From positions 2,046,001 to 2,110,000 of the forward strand of contig NC_052487.1 of NCBI RefSeq assembly GCF_009730915.1: a DNA stretch of 64,000 nucleotides, written 5' to 3'. The DNA comes from Dioscorea cayenensis subsp. rotundata. Taxonomy: Eukaryota; Streptophyta; Magnoliopsida; Dioscoreales; Dioscoreaceae. Positions 12,201-60,600 of the stretch are shown here, one piece after another. How positions within the stretch are numbered: the first letter of the stretch is position 1; each line of letters opens with the position of its first letter. The position numbers and the translations under genes are program-made. The notes under the pieces are model-generated. The model searched no databases. It was not told the DNA's origin and saw only the letters and a program-made list of their open reading frames with translations.

Positions 12201-15200
12201 TTATATAATTGAATTGATTATTAAGCCCAAAAATTCTCAAGTTAGAAGGAATTAAATTTTGTGGATGCAATTTTATGTAGTTATCATAGTTTGCTTTTAT
12301 CCTTCTTATTTGGATTTCCTATTAGATTAGCATTTAAATAATCATTATCTTCTTCGTTGTATTCTCACATATTCTTAATTTCTCATTTCTCTGACTGACT
12401 GTCTTAGCAATATTGGCAGAAAGCATGCCATCCTAATTTTTTTGTATTTTTTATCCAAACATTTGCTGATTTACCCATTATCATTTGTTTTGACCTTTGC
12501 ATTTAATTCACCAAGTTCAATTTCATCATCTTTTATTGCTTGCATCATATTGATGTAATTGCATGATCTATTGAATGATAGGTATGCAATTTTATACAAG
12601 TTTGTTTCCTATATGCTGTTTAATTCTTCAATTTGTTCATTCTGCAGGTGGTTGTCATCTCAGGTGAAACTGGTTGTGGCAAGACAACGCAACTCCCTCA
12701 GTACATTCTAGAATCTGAGATTGATGCTGCACGTGGAGCATCTTGTAGTATTATCTGCACTCAACCAAGACGTATTTCTGCAATGTCTGTATCTGAGAGA
12801 GTTGCAGCTGAAAGAGGGGAAAAGTTGGGAGAATCTGTGAGTTACTCTTGCTCTCAGATGATGTTGTTGCTCCAAAGTCTGCTTCTCTTATTTTATTTTG
12901 AACTATGGACATTTTATGATCAATTTTTGGTGATATGCTTTTATTTATGCAGGTCGGTTATAAGGTTCGCTTGGAAGGAATAAAAGGGAGAGACACCCGC
13001 CTCCTTTTCTGCACCACAGGAGTTTTATTAAGGAGACTATTGGTTGATAGGAATTTAAAAGGTGTATCCCATGTTATTGTAGATGAAATTCATGAACGTG
13101 GCATGAATGAAGGTAAATTTATTTGGGAAAATAGATTTTCTTTGAAGCCTCTTGTCTCCTATAGAGATGCGACTTGCTAACATCAGAATAAACAATTAAG
13201 TTCTTAATGAAAATAGTTTTTGAGATTGGATTTTGCTATGTGAAGTTTATCCACTGGCTGTCTTGTTTCAGATTTCCTTCTAATTGTCTTGAAAGACCTT
13301 CTTCCACATCGACCTGACTTGAGATTGATCTTAATGAGTGCAACTCTCAATGCTGAGCTTTTCTCATCCTACTTTGGTGGAGCTCCAATGTTACACATTC
13401 CTGTATGTCATTTACTTTACTTTGAGTTGCAGTCTTGCAGATTGAACTCCTTTTGTAAATTTGAGGAATGCGAAAATTATGTTTGTCGTGATGCATTGTT
13501 GAGAAAATATTGAAACTTAATATGATCCACTGTAGTTTGCCAAAGGGGCACAACGGATATTAATAAAACCATAATTAGAAGTGATAAGTTACAAGATTAG
13601 GTGTAAAATGTGGAATAATATATGTGCTCAATGAGGATGGCTGGAGTCTTTGATTGCCCATGAACAGCCTGTGCCAAACTAATAGGAATACACATGCTTG
13701 GATAAAAGATTTTTTCTTGTTTTGAAAATTGTGGATTTTTTAAACTTCCACTTCAGCAAATAATCTTCTCTTTCTGTTATGAATGTTTTTTTCTGCCGAT
13801 TATGAACATTGCATAACATAATAATGTCTATAGTTATATCATGTGCTACATTGGCAACTTCCCCTAATTTCTATATTTTATACTTATTTTATTCTTTTTC
13901 TCCAATTGGTTTCTCAGGGCTTCACATATCCTGTTCGGAGTCACTTTCTAGAGAATATTTTGGAAATTACCGGGCATAGACTTACACCATATAACCAAAT
14001 TGATGACTATGGTCAAGAGAAAATGTGGAAGATGCAAAAGCAAGCAGCATTTAGGAAGCGAAAGAGCCAAATTGCTTCTGTTGTTGAAGTATGTAAATCT
14101 AGAACTTGCATTCTTTCTATTCACGTGATGCCTTTTACTTATAGAGAACCTCATCGACTTTTAGCATTATGAATGGATTATGTATGTGAATTTTGTTTAA
14201 AAACCAATGCAGGATGCATTAGAAGCTGCTGATTTTAGGGAATATGGCTCAAGGACTCGTGAGTCATTATTGTGCTGGAATCCTGATTCGATTGGTTTTA
14301 ACCTCATTGAAAGTGTACTATGCCATATATGCCGAAAAGAACGGTCTGGTGCAGTTTTAGTGTTTATGACTGGTTGGGATGATATAAATTCTCTTAAAGA
14401 TCAGCTGCAGGCCAACCCTCTTCTAGGAGATCCTTCAAAGGTTTTATTGCTTGCATGCCATGGCTCCATGGCTAGTTCAGAGCAGGTGAGTGCAATTCAT
14501 TGGGAACATGTTATTAGTTTTGTCATTTTTCTTCTTTGAAATAGTTTGGTTTACTTAACATATCCATGCGAATATTCAATTAAAACATGTCGTTTCTTTT
14601 ACATGCATGATATTTTTCATGGGCAATTAAATTTGATTTGCAGTTCACCCTATTTTTCTATACAATTAACATTCCTTCTTAGCTAATCTTACCATACAAT
14701 ATCATCATGATTTACGAGACTTAAGTTGCTAGGTAGTAAGAGCCTTTTTTTGTGAGGTCCTTTTTTTGAGCTTTTGTAACTGCATATTATGTAGACCTTC
14801 TGTGTTTATGTGCAATAGAGGCTACCATCCTTTCTGTAGCCTCTACTACCTACACACTCTAATACGCATCCAAAGCACGTGTGTGTATAAGTTGTCATAA
14901 TTTATGGATTCTAAGACTTTTGTGTTTTTGTTTCCCATGCAGAGGTTGATTTTTGACAAACCACCAGATGGTGTGCGGAAAATAGTTCTCGCAACAAATA
15001 TGGCTGAGACAAGTATAACGATAAATGATGTTGTTTTTGTGGTAGATTGTGGAAAAGCAAAAGAGACATCATATGATGCATTGAATAACACTCCATGCTT
15101 GCTTCCAACATGGATTTCCAAGGCTTCTGCTCGACAAGTAAGATACATCTCTGATTGTAGTTGATTGATTTTTGGACTGCTAGAATAGTGATATCTAATT

Positions 15201-19331: not shown

Positions 19332-20948
19332 ATGAAAACAGAGATGAAACCACTTAGAACATTTGCAGCAACTGTGAAGTCTTTCAAGAGTCATGCAAGA
19401 CAAGAGCCATGCAGAATAACAAATCTTCTCTTCATTCTCTCTTTGTTCCTCTCTCTTAGCATCCTCTTTCTCTTCAAGTCTCATTACTGCTCTTCTCCTT
19501 TTGGTCTTTCTCTTTCTCTGTTTCTTTCTCTGATTATATATATATATGTATATTCATTTATCTCATTAAAATTCTAATTTTCAGGGAAATCACAAACACT
19601 AATGAGTGTGCAAGTACCAGTGAAGGTTGTTAATGAAAGTGATGATCCTCCTCTGATAGGTTTGTCCCTATACACACCATAAAACTCTAATAATTTCAAC
19701 TTATTTCTGACCCCATTGTCCATTTCAGAGGATGAAGATGAAGATCAAGAAGATAATAACAGAGCTCTAATCAATACAAAGTCAGAGAAAACAAAACCAA
19801 TATGCTATGAAACAAGCAGTAGATCAGATACATGTGAAGTTGAAGGAGATGTTAGAGTTCAAGCAAGCACCAATACCATCTTCTTTCACCCTTGCACTTC
19901 AAAACCTCAACAATGGAGGATCAAACCATACACTAGAAAAGGAGACCCTTCAGCTCTCAAACATGTCAAAGAATGGACCTTGAAATCAGTCATGAATGTT
20001 GAAGAACTTCCTCAGTGCACCAAGACCTTCACAGTCCCTGCAATGCTCTTTTCCTCCCAAGGCTTCACTGGCAACTTCTTTCATGATTTCACTGATGTTT
20101 TAATCCCACTCTTCATCAACTCCTATCAATTCCATGGTGAAGTTCAGTTCCTTGTTTCAGATTTCATGTCTTGGTGGGTAAATAAATTCTCATTGATACT
20201 CAAACAATTGTCCAAGCATGGCATTGTGAACTTAGAAGGAGAAGAAAAGGCCGTATTATGTTACCGGAGATTGATCGCCGGACCGAGCTTCCACAAGGAA
20301 CTAGGCATTGATTCAATGAAATCTCCAAATGGTTATTCTATACTAGACTTCAAGAAATTACTTAGACAGGCATTTGGTTTGAAAAGAGACACTGTTGTGA
20401 TCACCAAGAAGCCGAAACTTTTAATCATATCAAGAAAGAAGTCAAGAGAATTCTTGAATGAAAAAGAGATTGCACAATTAGCAACGAGCTTAGGCTTCGA
20501 TGTCGTAATTGGTGAAGGTCGATGGGATATTACGGTGTCAAAGTTTGCTAATTTGGTTAACTCCGCCGATGTGATGCTTGGAGTTCATGGAGCCGGGCTT
20601 ACAAACATGGTGTTCCTCCCAAAGGACGCCGTAGTAATTCAAGTCATTCCTTTTGGGGGTTTGGAGAAAGTGGCAAGGCGAAGCTTCGAGGCGCCAACTA
20701 TGGACATGAAGATCAAGTACTTGGATTACGTGATTCAAGTGAATGAAAGCTCACTCATTGATCAATACCCGAAAGATCATCCAGTGTTGAAAGACCCAAT
20801 GTCAGTTCATAAACAAGGATGGATTGCTCTCAGTTCTCTCTATTTGGTCAAACAAAACATTAGGATTGATTTGCAGAGATTCAGAAACACTTTGTTAGAA
20901 GCTTTCAAGCTAGTTTCGAACAATTCTTCGATGATTCATACACAATAG
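19332..20948 (+). CDS. GT61 family glycosyltransferase A (xylan arabinosyl/xylosyltransferase-like)
   Basis: Predicted Golgi type II membrane glycosyltransferase. GT61 members add arabinose or xylose to xylan and related wall glycans; the substrate here is unknown. Three exons: 19332-19503, 19585-19659 and 19729-20948, 488 aa, both introns in phase 1. Residues 1-31 are basic and cytosolic, and about 32-48 is a Leu/Phe-rich signal anchor. The short second exon and the start of the third encode an acidic stem with a Glu/Asp run. The catalytic domain has the family block GFTGNFFHDFTDVLIPLF (about 194-211) and GVHGAGLTN (about 367-375), the presumed nucleotide-sugar site. The first donor (GTCTTT) is weak, so that junction is less certain. 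It is the only + strand member of the 19-30 kb group and lies tail to tail with GT61-B. Intact. Confidence 0.88.
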
Positions 20949-33818: not shown

Positions 33819-34949
33819 CTATGAATATTGATTGCTAACATCTATGAATATTGGTTGTTTTGCTTGGTGATAAATGTTGCGCAAAGGAAATAATGTGATG
33901 CTTTGATCTCTTATGTTGTAGACACCTGCATCATTGTATCCATACTTGTGTTTAGAATACTTATAATCATCACTGAAATAAATAATATTATTTTTTGTTT
34001 TATCAACCACGGTAGTTGTTGGAATCAACATTGCATGATTAGCACCCAAAACAAAAACATTACTATTTATGCTTTTTAGTTCAACAAATTTATTCACTTT
34101 TTGATCTAGCTTAAATAGCATGAAACTCCTTGTATGATAATCGTCATCCTCATCATTATTGCCCTCAATGTAATGCCTATAAACAAGTACCAGATCTCCC
34201 ATAAAATCTACCAAATATTTTTCCATTCCTTCTAAGTGGCGATTGACTCGCAAGTAGTCATTATCATTTGGGGAACTAATTTCTATTAACTTGTGATTCA
34301 TACCAAGTTCAACTAGACACACTTGACTATGCGCTCCAACAATATAAAATGCTCCATTATACCATATGACATCTTCAACAAAAAAATCACTATCTATCGT
34401 AGTCCATATTAAGTCACCAGGCCTCCAAAATCCTAATTTAAAATTGCCAAATAAAATAACAATTACAATATAATCAAAACTCTTGTGAGGATTGCCCGAT
34501 AACACTCCTTTATAAATAAACATATCACGTCTTATTTCAGGCTCATGCCGCCTAAAATTTTCATAAAAATCTTCATGCCGAGCATTAGAAGTATCATATT
34601 CCATTAGAGGCAGCTTAACTTGGGCTTTAGAGAAATGATCCAACAAATTTATATTGAGATCTAGATCTATTGTAATTAGCCAGCCATGTGAAGAACCAAC
34701 ACAAAGCTTCCCATGTAACTCAGATATTTCTATTTGGTAAACCTTCTCCTCTGATGGATTAAAGAATCTTGAGGAATCATTATCGAAGGAAATCAACCAA
34801 GGAAGTTGTTTCTGCAAGAAATGATGTCTCTCTTTTGCCACCTCATGCCAAGCTGAACACACAGCACTTAATCGAATATAATCCGAAAAGGAGAGAAACT
34901 TTATTATCTCTTGTAATATGTCCCTCGGAAGATTCGCATAGTCTACCAT
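33819..34949 (-). CDS. F-box protein with DUF295 (KIB-type) domain, copy 1
   Basis: Predicted substrate receptor of an SCF-type E3 ubiquitin ligase. A single coding exon of 376 aa. The F-box is at about residues 4-45 (LPRDILQEIIKFLSFSDYIR followed by AVCSAWHEVAKE). The C-terminal half shows DUF295 features: a DYIVIVILFGNFKLGFWRPGD block, a WYNGAFYIVG block, and a terminal GVYNIRDQSITLFPL. A strong acceptor at 34954/34955 just upstream of the ATG, and a conserved GC-type donor near 35482, suggest an intron in the 5' UTR. A 19-20 bp tandem duplication at the 3' end (33829-33870) makes its last residues differ from copy 2. Direct paralogue of 45009-46148. Substrate unknown. Confidence 0.88.
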   Translation of the reverse strand: MVDYANLPRDILQEIIKFLSFSDYIRLSAVCSAWHEVAKERHHFLQKQLPWLISFDNDSSRFFNPSEEKVYQIEISELHGKLCVGSSHGWLITIDLDLNINLLDHFSKAQVKLPLMEYDTSNARHEDFYENFRRHEPEIRRDMFIYKGVLSGNPHKSFDYIVIVILFGNFKLGFWRPGDLIWTTIDSDFFVEDVIWYNGAFYIVGAHSQVCLVELGMNHKLIEISSPNDNDYLRVNRHLEGMEKYLVDFMGDLVLVYRHYIEGNNDEDDDYHTRSFMLFKLDQKVNKFVELKSINSNVFVLGANHAMLIPTTTVVDKTKNNIIYFSDDYKYSKHKYGYNDAGVYNIRDQSITLFPLRNIYHQAKQPIFIDVSNQYS

Positions 34950-35415
34950 AACTCCTGCAAGTTACATAAAAGAGAAAAATATAACGCTTCCATCATTTCA
35001 TTTCAAGAACATACAATGTTAATTTAAATCAATGAATTTCATCGGATAAATATAGAATACACATATTTTATCTATAGTTTATACAACAAGCTTATTCAAT
35101 TTAGATGTTATTTCTTTATATTTAATTCACATTAAAAAAAAAACAAATTTTAGTTGATATTTGCGTTTCACCTTATTCAGAGAAAAGTATTACAAATCTC
35201 CCAAAAACAAAAACTTAATCAACAAAAACATATTAACATATCCCCAAAAATCCCCAAAACATCATTAAAATTTATATGGTTTGCTTTTAAAATAAAATAA
35301 TTATAACTAAATCATACCCGTTCTTCTGCAATGCCCTTAGAGGACAAGTGGCACATGTATTTAATTATAATATCATAAATTTTATGAACGCATGACATTT
35401 TTGTTACAACGAAAA

Positions 35416-38609: not shown

Positions 38610-38733
38610 TCTAATTTCATATTCTATTGCAGAGAAATTTATTATAATTTTGCAAGCAAAATGAGTCCTGAATGCTAATTTCATATTCTATTGTAGAGAA
38701 ATTTATTATAGTTTGGCTATCAAAATGAGTTCT
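38610..38733 (+). repeat. About 62 bp tandem duplication in the pseudogene intron
   Basis: Two adjacent units each contain CTAATTTCATATTCTATTG, AGAGAAATTTATTATA and CAAAATGAGT in the same order with small differences. It is a local direct duplication. Confidence 0.75.
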
Positions 38734-39689
38734 GACTGAATGTTATCTTGAAGGAAGGAGGGTCTAAGTTTTATCGTCTCTTGTCGTTTGTCTGAATGAT
38801 TTTGGTTATTATTACAGTTCATTTTTATCAAAAATTTTCATTTTCTTGTGGATTTTAATTCAGCCTGAGAGTTGAGACCACCATGTGCCTAGGCTGTTCG
38901 ACGCAATCTTATGATGACGGCATTAATGGTTGATGGAATGATGTAGTGGTCATTTTCAGAAATTATGTTTGTGTGTTCAGTCAATTTCTAATTTTATTTT
39001 TTCCAATAAATTCTGTTTTCCTTCACTGATTAAAAAGGGTCAATGTTCAAGAATCTTAATTTGAAGTTGGATAAGGATGGTTTTCCATGTTTAGTTTTAT
39101 TTTATGGTGATCTGGGTGGTAATACTAATGGCTGAAGGTTGAAGATTTAGTATTAGAAATGATTAATGAAGTGGGTGCAGTAGGGTTTGAAGGTTTAAGG
39201 CTTTGGTGAAAAGATATTGTTGAATAAAAATTTTTGAGAGCTATGAATACGGGAACACAATTCATTATGTTACTCATTCAAGTTCACATTAGTTCTTGAA
39301 GATCTTCTTTTTTGTAATTAAGTTACCATTAAAAAAATATTCTATTAACTGTCACTCACATGTGGAGATAAAATAAAAAATCCATCTGGTTTATTTCACG
39401 AGCTTCCCTTAAAATTTATACTATACTATGGATCAAATCACAAAGAAAAATCAGTTTAGTGCTCTTGTTCTCATATATTCGCGAGGATTGCATCTTCAAT
39501 GGATCTTTGTTTATCCTATCCAAATATTATGTGAATTCCCTCCTCATAAAATTATTAGGTATATTTGTGCTTGGACTTGGTTATTAGTGAGTCGATCTAA
39601 TGAGACACTTAAAATAAGGTGAGATGAGTGGCTGTTTGTGAAGTACATTCTGGGTGAACTTGCTAACATGGCTAAACTGTATATAGGTC

Positions 39690-40385: not shown

Positions 40386-40735
40386 GCTTTTCACTTGTTT
40401 AATTTTCTTCTCCAACCTAAATCCCTAATACATTCTCGTAGGTCACATAGGGTTCAACCAATTGTAGTCAACACAGGGATTTACTTGATTTCGGTAAATT
40501 GTTCAGTTGCTTATTATTAGGTGTTTGTATGTATGAAATATTTAGTGTTATGGTTCTATGATTTTTCACTTGTTTAATTTCCTTCTCCAACCTAAACCCC
40601 TAATGCATTCTGGCAGGTCACAGTTCAACCAATTGTAGTCGACTCAGGGATTTATTTGATTTTGGTAAATTGTTCGGCTGCTTATTAATTAGGTGTTTGT
40701 ATGTATGAAATATTTAGTGTTATGGTTCTATGATT
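40386..40735 (+). repeat. About 175 bp tandem duplication carrying pseudogene exon 3
   Basis: Both units contain TTTTCACTTGTTTAATTT, CTTCTCCAACCTAAA, the 50 bp exon-like segment, and a downstream block GTGTTTGTATGTATGAAAT. Each unit keeps an acceptor and a donor, so this is an exon duplication inside the GT14 relic. Confidence 0.85.
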
Positions 40736-40901
40736 TTGTTTTTCATTTAATTTCATGTGGTTTTATCTATTTACTGTCACTTGTTATTGTTATTGTTATT
40801 GTTGTTTTCTGGTTTAATGTTTTTAGGACAATTTGTGGTTTTGAAATCTAGTGCATCATTAAGAGCTTTTGTTGTAACTTAATTTTTCTTTATGTGCAGA
40901 C

Positions 40902-41096: not shown

Positions 41097-41152
41097 GGTA
41101 AACGACTTTCGAATGCTGGGGCTGCTCTAAGTGTTGAATGCCATGCATGCCA

Positions 41153-41489
41153 TAAACTAATCATTCATGGTTACCACTGTGCTCTGTTTTTCTGTTTGAA
41201 AAAACACAAACTTTTCACTGATGATGATGCTTGAATCTGAACCATATTTTTCTATTACTTTGTTTATAAACTAATCATTCATGGTTACCACTGTTTTTCT
41301 GTTTGAAAAACACAGTTGTTCACTGATGATGATGCTTGAATTTGAACCATATATTCTATTACTTTGTTTATAAACTAATCATTTATGGTTACCACTGTTC
41401 TCTGTTTTTCTGTTTGAAAAACACATACTTGTTCACTGATGATGATGCTTGAATCTGAACCATATTTTCTATTACTTTGTTTGTAACTT
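41153..41489 (+). repeat. Tandem repeat, three units of about 104-115 bp
   Basis: Three adjacent units start with TAAACTAATCATTCATGGTT at 41153, 41267 and 41371. Each continues through CTGTTTTTCTGTTTGAAAAA, CACTGATGATGATGCTTGAA and CTATTACTTTGTTT. Spacing shrinks by small deletions. The array lies just 3' of the zinc-finger ORF and may be part of its 3' UTR. Confidence 0.85.
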
Positions 41490-44351: not shown

Positions 44352-47300
44352 GGGTTTATTATGGCCTATGGGGGCATTAGAAATTATTTTTTGTTATTAA
44401 TATATTTTTAAATTTAAAGGAAAATACAATGTAAGAAATATTTTTATTATTAAGCTAGACAAACTAATGTAAGAAAATAAAAAAATAAAAAATATTATTA
44501 AAAAATACAATGTAGAAAGCTAGTATGTATAATATAACTAGATAAACAAATAAATAAATTGTGGAGTAAGGATCCAACTTGGGATACGAATTTAATCCTT
44601 CCAAGTTCGAAATAATATAAATTCTAAAATACTCCATCATTGTTTGTGACACATTTATACCAATGTTGTTATAACTCGCTTTTGTTTAATGTCATATTTA
44701 ATATTAATCTTAATTAAAATTTTTGATAACATTAATAATAAATATTGGTACTTTCACAAAACAATAATATAGTATGTTAAAGTATCCATATAACAACATC
44801 TGAGATGTGAGAACATCATGGAATAATCTTCCCATATCAACATTTATTCGACTAAAAGGTAGTTTAAAATCAAGCAAGAAGAAACAATAAATTATATATG
44901 TTGTATTGATATTTAAAAAAATTAAAAAATTAAAAATTAAAAATTGATAAAGAAAGAAAAATCTACTAAATATATTAATATAGATAACTTTGTGTTTTTT
45001 TTTTACATTTAAATAAACCATAAGTTACCACAGCTAACATTTATGAATATTGGTTGCTTTTCTTGGTGATAAATGTTGCGCAAAGGAAATAATGTGATGC
45101 TTTGATCTCTTATGTTGTAGACACCTGAATCATTGTATCCATACTTGTGTTTAGAATACTTATAATCATCACTGAAATAAATAATATTATTTTTTGTTTT
45201 ATCAACCACAGAAGTTGTTGGAATCAACATTGCATGATTAGCTCCCAAAACCAAAACATTACTATTTATGCTTTTCAATTCAAAGAATTTATTCACTTTT
45301 TTATCCAGCTTAAATAGTATGAAACCGCTTGTATGATAATCGTCATCCTCATCATTGTTGCCCTCGATATAATCCCTATAAACAAGTACCAGATCTCCCA
45401 TAAAATCTACCAAATATTTTTCCATTCCTTCTAAGTGGTGATTGGCTCGCAAGTAGTCATTATCATATGGGGAACAAATTTCTATTAACTTGTGATTCAT
45501 ACCAAGTTCAACTAGACACACTTGATTATGCGCTCCAACAACATAAAATGCTTCATTATACCATATGACATCTTCAAGGAAAAACTCACTATCTATCGTA
45601 GTCCACATTAAGTCACCAGGCCTCCAAAATCCTAATTTAAAATTGCCAAAGAAAATAGCAATTACAATATAGTCAGAACTCTTGTAAGGATTTGCTGATA
45701 ACACTACTTTATAAATAAACATATCACGTTTTCTTTCAGGCACATGCCCCAAAAAATTTTTATAAAAATCTTCATGCCGAGCATTAGAAGTATTATATTC
45801 CATTAGAGGTAGCTTAACTTGGGCCTTAGAGAAAGGATCCAACAAATTTATATTGAGATCTAAATCTATTGTAATTAGCCAGCCATGTGAAGAACCAACA
45901 CAAAGCTTCCCATGTAACTCTGATATTTCTATTTGGTAAACCTTCTCCTCTAATGGGTTAAAGAATCTCGGGGAATCATTATCATAGAAAAGTAACCAAG
46001 GAAGTTGTTTCTCAAGGAATTGGTGTCTCTCTTTTGCCACTTCATGCCAATATGAACACACAGCACTAAATCGAATATAATCTGAAAAAGAAAGAAACTT
46101 TATTATCTCTTGTAATATGTCCCTCGGAAGATCTTCGTAGTTTACCATTACTCCTGCAAGTTAGATAAAAAAGAAAATATAATGCTTCCATCATTTAATT
46201 TCATGAACAAACAATGTTAATTTAAATCATTGAATTCTAAAGAATCTAAAATACATACATTTTAGTTATAGTTTACACGACAAGCTTATTCGATGTAGAT
46301 GTTATTCTTTATATTTAATTCATATTTTTAAAAAATAAATTTTAGTTGACATTTGAATTTCACCTTATTTAGAGGAAAGTATTAAAAATCTCCCAAAACT
46401 AAAACTTAATTAAAAAAAAAAATTCAACATATCCCCAAAAATCCCCAAATCATCATTAATTTATATAGTTTACTGCTTTTACAATAAAATAATTATAACT
46501 AAACTACACTCGTTCTTCTCCAACTACTACCAGAGGAGAAATGGCATAGATATTTAATTATAATATCATAAATATTATGAACATATGATCTTTTTATTAC
46601 AATGGATATATTTATATATATATATATAATAAAATAAAAATAAATAAAGACATGCCTCCTAAATCGATGATGAATCACACTTAAAGAAAGAGATCACAAG
46701 TGAAGAGAGTGAGGGGAAAACAAGCATTCTTTAATTTACTTTTAATTATTTAATTGTAATCAAATTTTAATTATAATCAAAATACAATTAAAAGTTTTAT
46801 TAATATTTTATATTATTATCTGATCCGTGACCAACTCTAATCAAAACCTCATTATTATAATATAACTTCTAACTCACACAAAATACCTTAGTTTTTTAAA
46901 ATATTTATTTACAATAAACAAATAATTTAATTTTAAAATTATTTTATAAAATATTTATATATATTTATATATATATTTTATAAATTTCTCTATTTTTTTA
47001 TTTTATAAATAACTTTTTATTTTAAAACAATCCTCAAGACCTAAATTTAGATAATTTAATTTTGTTTTGAATTCTCTAGAGTGTAATTAATAATAGTCAA
47101 TCAGTATATATTTTTTAAAATAAATTTATGCAAATGTTAGATCAGCAAAATATTTATTTTAAAAAAAAAATATTAAGAGCAAATCATTTGATAAAATGAA
47201 TTCCAAAATAAAAAAGAGCTAAATAAGCACGCATTAACTCTACAAGTGAAAAAAAAACAAGAGAAATTAGGACAATATTAAGATCAAAATGAAGAAATAA

Positions 47301-53391: not shown

Positions 53392-56300
53392 ATGGAGGCA
53401 TGCAAAAGTATGGCAAGGATAAAGCCAGAGAAGCTTGGCTGCATGGCTGTTCTTGCATGTCTTTTGGTGGTGCCAATCATCATCCTTGCTCTTCCTAACA
53501 TCACTTCACAATCATTGGATATCAGTAAGCTCTTCTTCTTCTTCTTCTTCTTCTTCTTCTTCTTCTCTTCTTCTTCTTCTTCTTCTTCTCTCTGTATATA
53601 TATATATATATATATGTAGACACACACATATGGTTTCCTCCTCTCACTAATTTTGTAATCTTATTCTCCTCAAAGTAAAATAAGATTCATGCATGGGACT
53701 AGTGTTTTCAATGATGAAAGTATACATGCATGGAGCTTGTGTTCATATGGAACTAAAATTAATAAGAAAAGAAAAAAAGAAAAAACATGCATGGTGCTTG
53801 TGTTTTCATTGATGAATTAATGTGTGTGTGTATATATATATATATACATATTTTTTTGCAGTGAGTTTGCACTTGCCAATCCGTGAGGCTCATGTACCTT
53901 TATCAACTGTGAATGAATCCAAGGATTCCTACAAACCACCAGGTAATTTATTACTAATTTATCTCTCTTCTTCTTCTTCTTCTTCTTCTTCTTCTTCTTC
54001 TTTATTTTTAGTTTTTATTTTTTATTTTTCTTAATTAATTTCTTTTATTTTCAATTTTCATCATTTCAAGTCAATATGGAAACGTGTAGCCTCTTCTTTT
54101 GTAACTAGTGGAGCATCTTTTTCTCTTTTCTTTTATTAAAAAAATATATATGAAGAGAAATACATTATTTATGTTAATTTACACACAAATAGAACTTTTT
54201 GTCAAATAGCAAGCACAAACATGTTATATTATTAAGTGCTATATATGGAAATCATTTCTATATAGACAACCATGTCTATTCCCTCTCCATATATATAATT
54301 AGAAGTTACTTTCCATTTTATTCTCTCTTTTCTTTAAATAAACTGATTCCATTATATATATATATATTATATATATATATTTACAATAATAAGTTTCCCA
54401 ATTATAGACAGCACCCTACAGTAATGTGCTTCACTCGCTCTTAATTAATCTTTAGGAGAGGGACATTTGCGGCGGAGGCATTGCATGACAATAAAGATAA
54501 TGATAGGAAAGAATAAAGTGGACCACTTACAAAAAGAACAAACCATTTGCTCCCACTAATTATATTAAGCAAAAGTCTAGAACCAACTTATTATTTTGTT
54601 ATGTTTTGGTGAAAAGAAATCAAAGTAGTGGTCCATTTATCATATGATGTTGATCAACCACCCACCAAATACATTACCCACCCAAGAAAAAAAAATTAAG
54701 AGCAAAATTTTACACATTAATCAACAATTTAATAAAAAAAAAAAGTAACTCTTCAAGTTGCTATGGATTCATGTGATCATCATAAAAGCAAAGCAAAATG
54801 TAGAAGCAATCAACTTCAAACTAGTTGGGTTATAATCTTGTGGTCAGCTATGAAGTCTTCTGCTAATTAATTAAAGTATTAAACAAAGAAAACTTGAGAT
54901 TCACAACTTTCACACAATGCCAATCACATAATCAAATGGTCAATTTTGAAAAATTTGTGTACTATTTGTTTGTACTTTGATATAGAAAATAGTTAAAAAG
55001 AGCCTGCCTTTTCTGTAATACATGTAATTCGGTTTGACTTTTTATTGATCATGAAACACATGTAATGCAGATGCCGAAATTTCGATACTGACTCTGGAAG
55101 CAGAAGAAATTGAAGAGGAGAGCAACAAGAATGCAGGTTAGTGAAAAAAATATTAACTTGGTTCAGTAAAGTCAACAAATTGTCTGTTAAACATTTCATG
55201 CAGAACTAGTTCTTGCTTGAAATGAGAAGAAACAACAGCAAAATCATAAGAGAAATGTTAGGAATAAACTTGCAATTGCATCATGACACGCCGATGATTT
55301 ATATAAATGACCGGGTACACATTTCATGCAGATATTAACACTGTGGTTTTCACTGATGCTTCAAATGAAATAAAGCTGCAGCAAAATTATACGAAAAAAG
55401 GCAAGAAACAATGTTCAATTGTATCTCCATATGATTCTGATTCATATAAATAACCTGATCATGATAAAACATATCAAACAGATGGTATTGACACTGCAGT
55501 GCTTGCTGATGCTTCAAATGAGCAGAAACAACAGCAAAATTACACGAGAAATGGTAGGTATAAATTTTCAATTAAATCATGATATGCAGATCATTCATGT
55601 AAATAACCAGTTGCTATTGAATATTCTTACGCAGATTCTAAGATGACAGATCTCATTCTTGATTCAAATGAGAAGAAACAAGAGGCAAATAACATGAGAA
55701 AAGGTGGCGTAAACTTTGAACTTTATCTCCATATGATTCTGATTCATATAAATAACAAGTTCTTGTTGAACATTTCATGTAGATAAAAAGCACACCACAC
55801 GGCCAGTCCTTAATTCAAACAAGAAACTGCAAAATTATATAAACTCAATTGCATCTCACTTTATATAATTATCCAAAGAGTGTTAATATCTCGAGAAGAC
55901 ACTAAAGCAAGAAAATGAATCTTCGCTTTAAATGTAAAACTACATCAAAAAAAATAAAGTTCCAATCTTTAATATCTACTGCCTGACAAAACATAAATTC
56001 ACTAACTACAGTGCATTTGATAATAGATATGGGAGAGAAAGGACTTCCCCTCACCGCTAAAGAAAACGAGGAAAAGAATTCGACCAAAGGTGAGTCATAG
56101 ATCCATGGGTGGAAAATGCATATATTAGTTTCATTCAGCAGTTTCAAAATGGTCACATTACATTGTAAGACATCACCTTCTAATTTTTGGTCCAAAATGC
56201 AGAGGGGCTTATTCCACAAAGCAGTATCACTTGTGACTTCTCAGGACCACGATCGGATACCTGCTACATACATGGTGATGTCAGGGTTCTTGGAAATGTC

Positions 56301-57368
56301 ATCTTATCAGCTTCATCATCACAGCTCAATTCTCCCAACACGACATGGCAGATAAGACCATATGCTCGGAAGTGGGAAACAAATGTTATGGGATACATCA
56401 AAGAAATATCCCTCAGATCATTAGAAAATTTCAAGGAAAATGCTCATTGTGCTGTCAACCACAGTGTCCCTGCTGTAGTCTTCTCTACAGGTGGATTCCT
56501 TGGTAACTTCTTCCATGACTTCACTGATGTGTTAATTCCCCTCTTCACAACAGCACGTCAGTACCACGGGGAAGTCCAGTTTCTAGTAACAGATTTCAAT
56601 GCAAAGTGGATAAACAAATACCAGCTGATCCTACAAAAACTTTCTCGATACGAGATCATCAACATTGATACTGATACCAGAGTGCATTGCTTCCAAAATT
56701 TGAATGTGGGACTCCAGAGTGACAAAGTAATGGGGATCGATCCTTCTAAATCACCAAATGGCTACTCCATGGCTGACTTCAGAGAGTTCATAAGGGAAAG
56801 CTTATCTCTACAAAGAAGGTATACTAAGATGATTCCAGCTCAATCAAGGAGAAAACCAAGACTACTGATCCTACTGAGGAAGGGTTCTAGATCCATAACA
56901 AATGCAAAGCAAGTGATTCAGATGGCAAGAAGATCAGGCTACAAAGTGGTCACAGCGGGACCCGAAGAAACAAGGAACCTAACCAAGTTTGCACATACAG
57001 TAAACTCATGTGATGTGATGATGGGAGTGCACGGTGCTGGTCTTGCAAACATGGTTTTTCTCCCAACGAATGCAACACTAATACAAATAATTCCATGGGG
57101 AGGCTTAAAGTGGGCTTGTAGGCATGATTTTGGAGAGCCGGCTCCAGATATGGGGATAAGGTATGTAGAGTATGAAATAAAGGAAGAAGAGAGCTCATTA
57201 ATAGAACAATACCCGAGAAACAATGCAGTATTCACAGATCCTCTGTCAGTTCAAAAGCAAGGATGGAATGCTCTCTGGTCTATATTTCTCAACAAACAAA
57301 AAGTAAAGCTAGATGTCGGAAGGTTTAGACCAGTCTTGTTGGAAGCTCTTAGGTTTCTCAAACCATAG
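53392..57368 (+). CDS. GT61 family glycosyltransferase E with a tandem mini-exon stem
   Basis: Predicted Golgi GT61 enzyme. Proposed exons: 53392-53524 (basic tail and anchor, about residues 15-34), 53862-53942, 55071-55136, 55332-55400, 55482-55553, 55635-55703, 56027-56089 and 56203-57368, every intron in phase 1. With all of them the protein is 572 aa, or 549 if 55332-55400, which needs a GC donor, is skipped. The catalytic exon has GGFLGNFFHDFTDVLIPLF and GVHGAGLAN (about 459-467) and ends RFRPVLLEALRFL. The stem is polar, rich in Asn, Gln, Lys and Glu, and built from repeated DASNE-type units encoded by duplicated exons. It is separated from GT61-D by about 23.5 kb of accessory DNA and is the most diverged of the five. 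Which stem exons are used needs transcripts. Confidence 0.85.
53531..53610 (+). repeat. TTC/TCT microsatellite and (TA)n in GT61-E intron 1
   Basis: A long (TTC)n run begins six bases after the first donor and is followed by a (TA)n run. A second (TTC)n run sits in intron 2 at about 53967-54001. Open frames giving Ser or Phe strings here are repeat artefacts. Confidence 0.9.
55071..56089 (+). repeat. Tandem array of duplicated phase 1-1 mini-exons in GT61-E
   Basis: Repeating units of about 130-150 bp, each an acceptor, a 63-72 nt exon, a donor and a short intron. Recurring intron text includes ATCTCCATATGATTCTGATTC (near 55422 and 55724), TCATATAAATAAC and CATTTCATG(C/T)AG. Units with closely related exon text: 55204-55256 (dead: in-frame stop at 55218, wrong phase), 55332-55400 (open, GC donor), 55482-55553 (open), 55635-55703 (open) and 55783 onward (acceptor kept, donor lost). 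The flanking exons 55071-55136 and 56027-56089 have the same phase but weaker similarity. Shared peptide theme: DASNE or DSNE, then Lys/Gln, then QQNYT or related. Confidence 0.82.
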
Positions 57369-57647: not shown

Positions 57648-60600
57648 TCACGCATGTACCTTTTGCTGATCCAAGATCACATTTAAGATTCTTCTTGGGA
57701 CATAAATTCTTTTCTTGATTGCCTTCCCATGTAAGTACTTGGAAAGCTTTTCATCAAGTGATGCCAATTTGAAGGCTTCATCCTCTGAACAGTCCTCATT
57801 AACTAATATGGTGCCCCTGGTTTTTCCATTAATCTGGACAGGCAACACAATGCTTGAATCTTTCAAATACTCAGTTCTGGCCTGTACTCCAAGTAACAAA
57901 AGGATCATTGTCTAAATAAATAAATAAGCTGTATCTTAGAGTCTATAATTATCATTCTTCTTCCGATATTTAAATCATGATAATTAATGGAACAAGTTTA
58001 AATCAAGACTACATATAACTGGGATGATTACAGCACCAAATGGAAAAAGAGGAGAAAGCAGAATAAATTTTCAACTAAAAGTTTGTCAACCATTCCTTGA
58101 ATTTGAGAAACTCAAGTTAGGGAAGCATAAATACTAACGATTTGATATCCCGTAAAGAATGATCTACTCTCAACCTTCTTCTCTTGATTCTTTGTTCGGT
58201 TTCGATGACGATTTCTCCGACATCTGAATCTACGAAGTTGACAGTACCTAACACCATCAATTGAACAATCTCTCCCAAGAACAAAAAAAGAAAAAGAAAA
58301 TCCCTTCATCCAATAAGGACCTGACATTGTGGTTGGAGAGGGTTGAAGCTAACCAATGCTTCTCCAAACTGTACTACCTGATGCTTAATACTGACATTAT
58401 GCTGCTGTTCCGAGGTCTCACAGTGGTAGTTCTGTCCTTCCACAGCTTACATGTGGTCAGAATCCATATGATTGTGCCCATTGGCAAAATGGGCTGCAAG
58501 GAAGATGGGATTCAAACAAACTACTCTTGGTCAACCCCAAATACCATGCGAGCATCGTTTCCCTCAACAGACAATGCAACCTCCATCTTCATCAATTTTC
58601 CAGGATTCGATGGAAAGACAAATATACAAATTTCGCTTTTTGCTGCTGAAAATTATTTCATGTGTGCAAAAGCAACGGAAAATTGAAGGTGGCAATTACA
58701 GTGATTTATTTGGAAAAGGAAGCCACACAATTGTAGAAATGGTATTTTTCATGGATGGAGAAGCCAGCATAGGGAGACTTTAAGCAGGCAATTATGATAT
58801 GATTCAGACCAGACTATATGGCCAGCTATATGATCCGGTACTCACAGCTCATCTGATCCTGATCTCAGTTCCCCAAATACCATGCGAGCATCGTTTCCCT
58901 CAACAGACAATGCAACCTCCATCTTCATCAATTTTCCAGGATTAGATGGAAAGACAAATATACAAATTTCGCTTTTTGCTGCTGAAAATTATTTCATGTG
59001 TGCAAAAGCAACGGAAAATTGAAGGTGGCAATTACAGTGATTTATTTGGAAAAGGAAGCCACACAATTGTAGAAATGGTATTTTTCATGGATGGAGAAGC
59101 CAGCATAGGGAGACTTTAAGCAGGCAATTATGATATGATTCAGACCAGACTATATGGCCAGCTATATGATCCGGTACTCACAGCTCATCTGATCCTGATC
59201 TCAGTTCTTTCACCCAAGTAAACAAATTTCCACACTAGCAGCAAGCTACGTTTGATAAGTTCAATGCTCTTCATTAAAAATTAAAGCTGGATTCTTGTTC
59301 TTCTATCACCCAATGCCAATATTATCAGATCTAAATGGGTTTTTCAAACAAAAAGAAAATTCCCTGGCCTTCTTGATCGCTACAAAACTCGTTTCGTAGC
59401 TAAGAGATACCATCAATCCTCTAGCATCGACCACAATGATACCTTCAGTCATGTTGTCAAGCACACCAACATCAGCGTCACTGTTACTCTCGCACTCACT
59501 AATAATTAATCCATTCACCAACTTAATGTCCATAATGTCTTTCTTCATAAAATCTTCAAGAACCAATTTTCATGGTTCAAACTCTTAGGTCTGCTGATTC
59601 TCATCATCCAAATTATATGCCTTCTTAACAAAGCCCTCTAAAGCCTTCACCCAAGCCCCTTCTGCATGATTTCATTGCTTAGGTCAAAAACTTCAAGGCC
59701 TCAACTTCACTCCCTCTAAAGCTGATACTTCACTCTTTATATGGTTCATTTTCTCCCACACTACCTTCATCCTGATTTATGTGGATGACATCCTGGTTAC
59801 ATGTTCGTCACCTATTTTCACATAAAAAACACCCTGGCCTTATTCATTACGTCCTTTGCATTGAAATGACACTAACACGATCTGGACTACTCATCACCTA
59901 AACCAAATACACCTACGACGGCCTTCACTGTACACATCTAAACCTGTGCATACACCAATCAACCCAACCTTACCACTATCTAAAAATCATGGTACCCCTC
60001 TCGAATCCTACTAAATACCATAACATCATTGGTGTTGCTCTTCACTACCTCTGACTTACTTGCCTTAACATATAAGTTTTTGTAAACAAAGTGTCATAGC
60101 ACTACAACTAATCAAATTCTACAATACTTGCGGTATACGTCTTCTCATGGCATTTATCTAACCAAAGCCACCCTATTCACGCCTTGCAGCATATTCTGAT
60201 GCTGACTAGGTTGGTCGTTCTAATCATCATCACTCGACCTCTGGCTATTGATTTTTTTTTTTTAGCCTTCATGTCTAGTTATTCTGACGACACACTCCCT
60301 CCATTTTGTATTTGGGTCAATATTCTTTGAAGGTGCCAAAACCGATTCTAAGAAGATTAAGACAGTGATTGAGTGGCTCATTCCTACATTCGTAAAAGCT
60401 TTGGAAGGATTTCATTGTCTAACAGGCTACTATTGGTAGTACGTGGATATCAATATTCTTGCTTTCCATTACACATTTATTGAAAAAGATGGCTTCCCTT
60501 AGTCGGAGGAGGCTACCAACACATTCTCAAAACTAAAAGAGGCTATGACTGCAACCTAAGAACTGTCCTTGCCCATGTGTTATTTAACCATTTGAAGTGT

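Follow-up and report, generated by a model that had tools for sequence, protein, structure and literature searches.

The locus considered here, from Dioscorea cayenensis subsp. rotundata, raises the question of how a GT61 glycosyltransferase gene comes to carry serial copies of one small exon in its stem region, and of whether these copies still contribute to the protein. The DNA analyzed, referred to here as the window, is a stretch of 64,000 nt (GCF_009730915.1, NC_052487.1:2,046,001-2,110,000, forward strand), and all positions given are positions in it.

Gene structure and the GT61 cluster

The window contains five clustered GT61 genes (19344-57368) in the order + - - - +, and the array of small exons lies in the last of them, gene E (Table 1). 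Re-reading of the sequence upheld the coordinates of exons and units given in a preliminary description of the locus. The joined model of gene E (E1, E2, E3, U1, U2, U3, E7, and the catalytic exon) encodes 572 residues with a single terminal stop, and starts with a hydrophobic stretch in E1 that was recognised by eye as the anchor. The Pfam scan, carried out on gene E alone, placed the GT61 domain (PF04577) at residues 287-478 of the joined protein (E=3.6e-14; score 53.6 bits, curated threshold 27 bits), while genes A-D were assigned by their 45-51% identity to gene E (alignment; tblastn, genome search). The models of these paralogues have one internal stem exon in A, B, and D and two in C, with all borders in phase 1; the model of gene A, with a poor donor at its first exon (1.3), is the least certain. 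The available text of a study of GT61 enzymes describes an N-R-R triad for UDP binding (PMC13123520); independently of an assignment to that triad, several Asn and Arg columns are invariant across the five cluster genes, including N101, R225, R229, and N282 in the numbering of the aligned domain.

Table 1. Exons and repeat units of gene E and the neighboring GT61 genes of the cluster (window positions).
Feature	Position	Strand	Description
Gene A	19344-20948	+	GT61 cluster paralogue
Gene B	23121-21630	-	GT61 cluster paralogue
Gene C	26479-24744	-	GT61 cluster paralogue
Gene D	29885-27710	-	GT61 cluster paralogue
E1	53392..53524	+	start codon, short tail, hydrophobic anchor; phase 1 at end
E2	53862..53942	+	stem exon, 81 nt, phase 1-1, one N-x-S/T sequon (NES)
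E3	55071..55136	+	stem exon, 66 nt, phase 1-1; possible founder or oldest unit
U0	55204..55256	+	dead unit: in-phase TGA, broken donor
U1	55332..55400	+	open, 69 nt, phase 1-1, GC donor, sequon NYT
U2	55482..55553	+	open, 72 nt, phase 1-1, donor GTAGGT, sequon NYT
U3	55635..55703	+	open, 69 nt, phase 1-1, weak donor GTGGCG (AAG|GTGGCG), no sequon
U4	55783..55845 (end approximate)	+	relic; acceptor TAG retained, donor region gone
E7	56027..56089	+	stem exon, 63 nt, phase 1-1, strong donor, sequon NST
Catalytic exon	56203..57368	+	GT61 domain, includes stop

Homology and decay of the repeat units

A repeat finder, unprompted, recovered a 114-nt repeat at 55199, 55342, and 55495; a family of 55 nt includes one more copy, the fourth, at 55647, with spacings of 143, 153, and 150. 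The unit consists of a mini-exon and its intron, with a period of approximately 150 bp, and is present in four homologous copies, U0-U3. As whole units, all six pairs score 8.7-14.8 s.d. over 200 dinucleotide shuffles, and in local alignment 9.5-17.5 s.d., every pair beating all 300 shuffles, in agreement with the earlier claim of serial mini-exon and intron copies in this gene. Since the exon part by itself (3.9-9.7 s.d., six of six pairs) and the intron part by itself (4.5-10.4 s.d., six pairs) both lie above their shuffles, exon and intron were duplicated together. Identities in the multiple alignment are 62-73% within U0-U3 and 47-55% for U4; we used these and the s.d. values because global pairwise identities are inflated by cheap gaps. 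This is tandem exon duplication: adjacent homologous exons with the flanking intron copied, U1-U3 being of phase 1-1.

The units differ in their state of preservation. U1-U3 are open and of phase 1-1, as first described, with the correction that the donor of U1 is GC rather than GT and that of U3 is weak. U0 was said to be dead by stop and phase, and both defects are present: a TGA stands in phase, and the donor reads G|TT against G|GT in U2, with a GT one base upstream that breaks the phase. U4 retains an acceptor at 55783 and has no donor at the expected position, consistent with the proposed loss. The picture of birth and death of units side by side thus holds, with three open units, a dead one, and a relic. 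Regarding the order of these events, the downstream introns of U1 and U3 match at 38 of 49 positions, U0 is closest to U2, and a tree of the units joins U1 and U3 with a bootstrap of only 67; a duplication of a dimer (U0U1 giving U2U3) is a candidate reading of this history.

A repeat with a period of about 150 bp might also be an intronic minisatellite or a mobile repeat that merely resembles exons, and further tandem duplications do exist in the same window. However, acceptor, open frame, and donor lie in register within the repeat, searches of the assembly, which may overlook diverged copies, returned no other place, and a blastn search of the array against the whole window gave, outside the array, short matches only, the best of 19 bases (E=0.039; 0.010 with U2 alone). 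We consider this explanation highly improbable.

The ends of the array

A profile of U0-U3, searched against the window in both orientations (128,000 residues), found, after the training units, U4 (55755-55840, E=0.013) and then E3 (55055-55098, E=0.079) as the next matches, followed by a match at 12799 (E=0.27). Both U4 and E3 fall short of the inclusion threshold of the program, and their position adds weight to them: each lies on the correct strand, sits at one of the two ends of the array, and matches the profile in register at the acceptor.

These and other candidates were compared with the units in 48 target-unit comparisons (12 targets by four units, 300 shuffles each; exon 2 of gene B was not among the targets), of which seven gave p<0.05. 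No comparison could reach a strict correction for 48 tests, as the floor of p with 300 shuffles is 0.003. Three of the seven belong to U4, which is at this floor against U0 and U3, at 0.013 against U1, and at 0.28 against U2, and whose excesses of 5.0 and 4.8 s.d. are the largest of the 48. The remaining four concern E3 (0.023), exon 3 of gene C (0.037), and exon 2 of gene D (0.010 and 0.043). The match of D exon 2 to U1 (p=0.010, 2.9 s.d., in splice register by eye) was discounted given the 48 tests, and homology with the units was not shown for E7, exon 3 of gene C, or the other second exons.

E3 is a more delicate case. Against U0-U3, the exons E3 and E7 score -0.9 to 2.4 s.d. over shuffles, which does not establish either as a unit, and the exon part of E3 itself reaches -0.2 to 1.8 s.d. 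The whole stretch 55071-55203 gives 3.1, 1.3, 2.0, and 5.5 s.d. against U0, U1, U2, and U3, and the part 3' of the E3 exon 5.2, 1.5, 2.3, and 4.3 s.d., where some likeness is expected because this part contains the acceptor region of U0. A protein profile of the units found nothing convincing among eight other stem exons, the numbers of shuffles (of 200) scoring at least as high being 9 for E2, 11 for E7, 63 for E3 (its own shuffles), 77 for C exon 3, 100 for A exon 2, and 104 for C exon 2, with B exon 2 and D exon 2 unscored. Considering position and DNA likeness, E3 may be a distant unit or the founder of the array.

Frame neutrality and splice sites

The six stem exons E2, E3, U1, U2, U3, and E7 are all of phase 1-1, and from the exon reading E3, U1, U2, U3, E7, and the catalytic exon are entered alike in phase 1. 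The claim that any subset of units can be spliced without a change of frame was borne out in all 42 combinations of dropped exons that we tested (every single, pair, and triple of the six, plus all six at once), each of which keeps an open frame into the GT61 domain with one terminal stop. Inclusion of U0, on the other hand, leads the frame to the TGA inside that unit. Judged by the frame, the stem might be of adjustable length, as the preliminary description proposed.

The splice sites were scored with a weight matrix that was taken as given and not derived here, on which the donors obtain 10.2 (E3), 4.7 (U1, GC), 7.2 (U2), 4.3 (U3), and 9.6 (E7). The acceptors of U1, U2, and U3 (6.8, 3.4, and 7.5 on the same matrix) are not weaker than those of E3 and E7 (6.0 and 3.1), and that of U0 (6.7) is on par with U1. 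Donors of the four paralogues in the cluster span 1.3 to 8.8, so the value for U3 is not disqualifying. The introns between open units measure 81 nt, a length that plants can splice. The weak donors of U1 and U3 fit equally well with regulated (cassette) exons and with exons in decay.

These observations bear on two alternatives. If U1, U2, and U3 were always included, the array would be a fixed insertion that lengthens the stem and acts as no switch. The frame that stays open over 572 residues when all three units are in, and the 81-nt introns between them, agree with such constant inclusion, although a GC donor in U1 and a poor donor in U3 lower its odds, and we hold it as a tentative possibility only; it is a special case of the explanation that we prefer, and the probabilities assigned to the two overlap. 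Alternatively, E3 might be spliced directly to E7, which would make U0-U4 intronic fossils, three of them open by chance. That two of the five units are clearly broken favors this view, as does the weakness of the U1 and U3 donors next to the strong donors of E3 and E7; against it speak the acceptors retained in U1, U2, and U3 and the presence of three open units, with exons that vary in length by no more than a single complete codon.

Selection on the open units

Purifying selection on the open units, for which the preliminary description had proposed a test, received no consistent support. The pN/pS values are 0.18/0.57 for U1-U2 (22 codons; pN<pS in 99.5% of bootstraps), 0.31/0.14 for U2-U3 (19 codons; 7%), and 0.36/0.49 for U1-U3 (19 codons; 72%), and the codon positions are about equally variable (8, 10, and 9 of 19 columns), with no excess at the third position, as a dead array would predict. 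Exon identity exceeds intron identity slightly, by 7 points within U1-U3 (p=0.12) and by 9 when U0 is added (p=0.039), which counts against a dead array.

A neutral simulation with U2 as its starting sequence and an assumed spectrum, without indels, yields a survival rate per unit. From this rate, three or more of the five units are expected to be intact with a probability of 0.57 to 0.35 at 8 to 12% divergence per lineage, and of 0.21, 0.12, 0.08, and 0.065 at 15, 18, 20, and 22%. As the units are 62-73% identical, the larger divergences apply; a dead array could still draw on these values. This leans mildly toward constraint, short of proof. Overall, we judge it unlikely that the whole array is a fossil.

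Genomic context

No array was seen in genes A-D, considering their models, the introns of A, B, and D, and the stem exons of C, A, and D compared with the units. In the whole assembly (584,211,761 bases, 2249 contigs), the array and U2 as DNA queries and U1-U3 as a protein query returned this locus alone, in searches that score the best candidates only and may overlook diverged copies; the U2 query found U0 and U1 but not U3, and copies as diverged as U3 are thus missed. A genome search for GT61 gave 12 matches, namely the five genes of this cluster and seven that we took as pieces of four further genes. The unit searches returned nothing at these four genes, where copies as diverged as U3 can escape; there, forward-strand ORFs of at least 30 codons in the first 1800 bases were considered, a length that shorter mini-exon ORFs escape.

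Clustering of GT61 genes has been described in monocots, and the available text of a survey gives > < < < < > as the consensus of the orthogroup A clusters in date palm, oil palm, and banana (PMC6297846); the order + - - - + found here resembles it. That survey, as far as its available text goes, deals with gene copy number, whereas the repeats described here are stem exons within one gene. If orthology holds, and if the plant stands outside the commelinids, the layout of the cluster would be older than in the model of that survey.

The window has other duplicated features. Three more tandem duplications are found at 38611-38735 (64 nt, two copies), 40388-40737 (171 nt, two copies), and 41152-41486 (113 nt, three copies), in or after what we take to be a broken glycosyltransferase-like gene, and the first two contain, by eye, acceptor-like AG sites. 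On the minus strand, two highly similar long ORFs (33819-34961 and 45009-46160), presumably of F-box proteins, represent an apparent duplication about 11 kb apart. At approximately 58540-59206, some 300 bases recur, by eye, nearly unchanged, and further along, up to about 62300, lie what we assume to be retroelement-like fragments.

Proposed mechanism and predicted stem

Based on the homology and register of the units and on their frame, the reading that we favor, and hold to be probable, is a tandem duplication of a stem exon with U1-U3 used in some or all transcripts. The phase-1 plan shared with the four paralogues, which have no array in their models, the GT61 domain of the joined protein, and the hydrophilic stem also speak for it, while the GC donor of U1, the poor donor of U3, and the inconsistent signs of selection speak against it. 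One phase 1-1 stem exon would have been duplicated serially with its flanking intron in one of the five clustered GT61 genes, and U1-U3 would be spliced into some or all transcripts, each included unit adding 23 or 24 residues to the hydrophilic luminal stem and U1 and U2 each contributing one potential N-glycosylation site. The weak donors make partial skipping likely, and inclusion of U1-U3 in some transcripts with partial skipping is most likely on this account. Units would be gained and lost under little constraint, given that the stem presumably tolerates changes in length and that the exons are symmetric.

The predicted stem is hydrophilic (GRAVY -1.10 across 141 residues, and -1.25 across the 70 residues of the array part). 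The two NYT sequons both lie near the end of their units; E3, like U3, has none, and exon 3 of gene C has two, NQT and NHS. A glycosylated spacer of variable length is a fair inference from this composition. In Golgi enzymes, the stem can bring about complex formation and aid localisation, with plant and human examples in the available text of PMC12331695.

In a further-reaching version, splicing would select zero to three open units and so set how far the catalytic domain stands from the Golgi membrane and how many N-glycans the stem carries, with U0 as a poison exon that lowers output when included; as a whole we regard it as doubtful. For U0 taken separately, such a role is possible in view of its good acceptor, in-phase stop, and shifted GT, and its inclusion would place a stop in the message.

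Comparison with known systems

Tandem exon duplication is a long established source of splice variation. Kondrashov and Koonin (2001), cited for tandem exon duplication leading to alternative splicing in the available text of a plant study (PMC2674458), treat the same type of duplication, in which head-to-tail copies of an exon with its flanking intron are frame-neutral. The present case differs in that the repeated exon codes for part of a hydrophilic spacer, in a plant enzyme of the GT61 family, in that several copies are present, dead ones beside live ones, and in that it is known from genomic sequence alone. In troponin T, the adjoining exons 4-8 of TNNT3 are alternatively spliced (PMC2447309, available text); this is an animal muscle protein, and the likeness considered here is that of neighboring mini-exons.

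For a Golgi type II transferase, a parallel is the mouse alpha-1,3-galactosyltransferase, which reportedly has small in-frame stem exons that are alternatively spliced and alter the length of the stem. It belongs, however, to an enzyme family other than GT61, and we know of no indication that its stem exons are tandem duplicates.

The preliminary description knew of no earlier account of such an array in GT61 enzymes, and we likewise found no description of repeated stem exons in GT61 in the literature searched, most subscription papers lying outside it. In the main text of the monocot GT61 survey, the word "exon" occurs a single time and the word "stem" never, and its available text makes no mention of repeated stem exons (PMC6297846). 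The best reading is that the type of duplication is ordinary, while its occurrence in GT61 is new as far as the literature searched extends.

Implications

Gain and loss of stem length is, to our knowledge, rarely observed in progress. In gene E, a single stem module can be seen in open, in damaged, and in almost erased form, beside four paralogues in which no array was seen. If splicing varies the number of units, the gene would offer a natural ruler series for stem length in a cell-wall GT61 enzyme; if it does not, the array would clearly exemplify a spacer under relaxed constraint.
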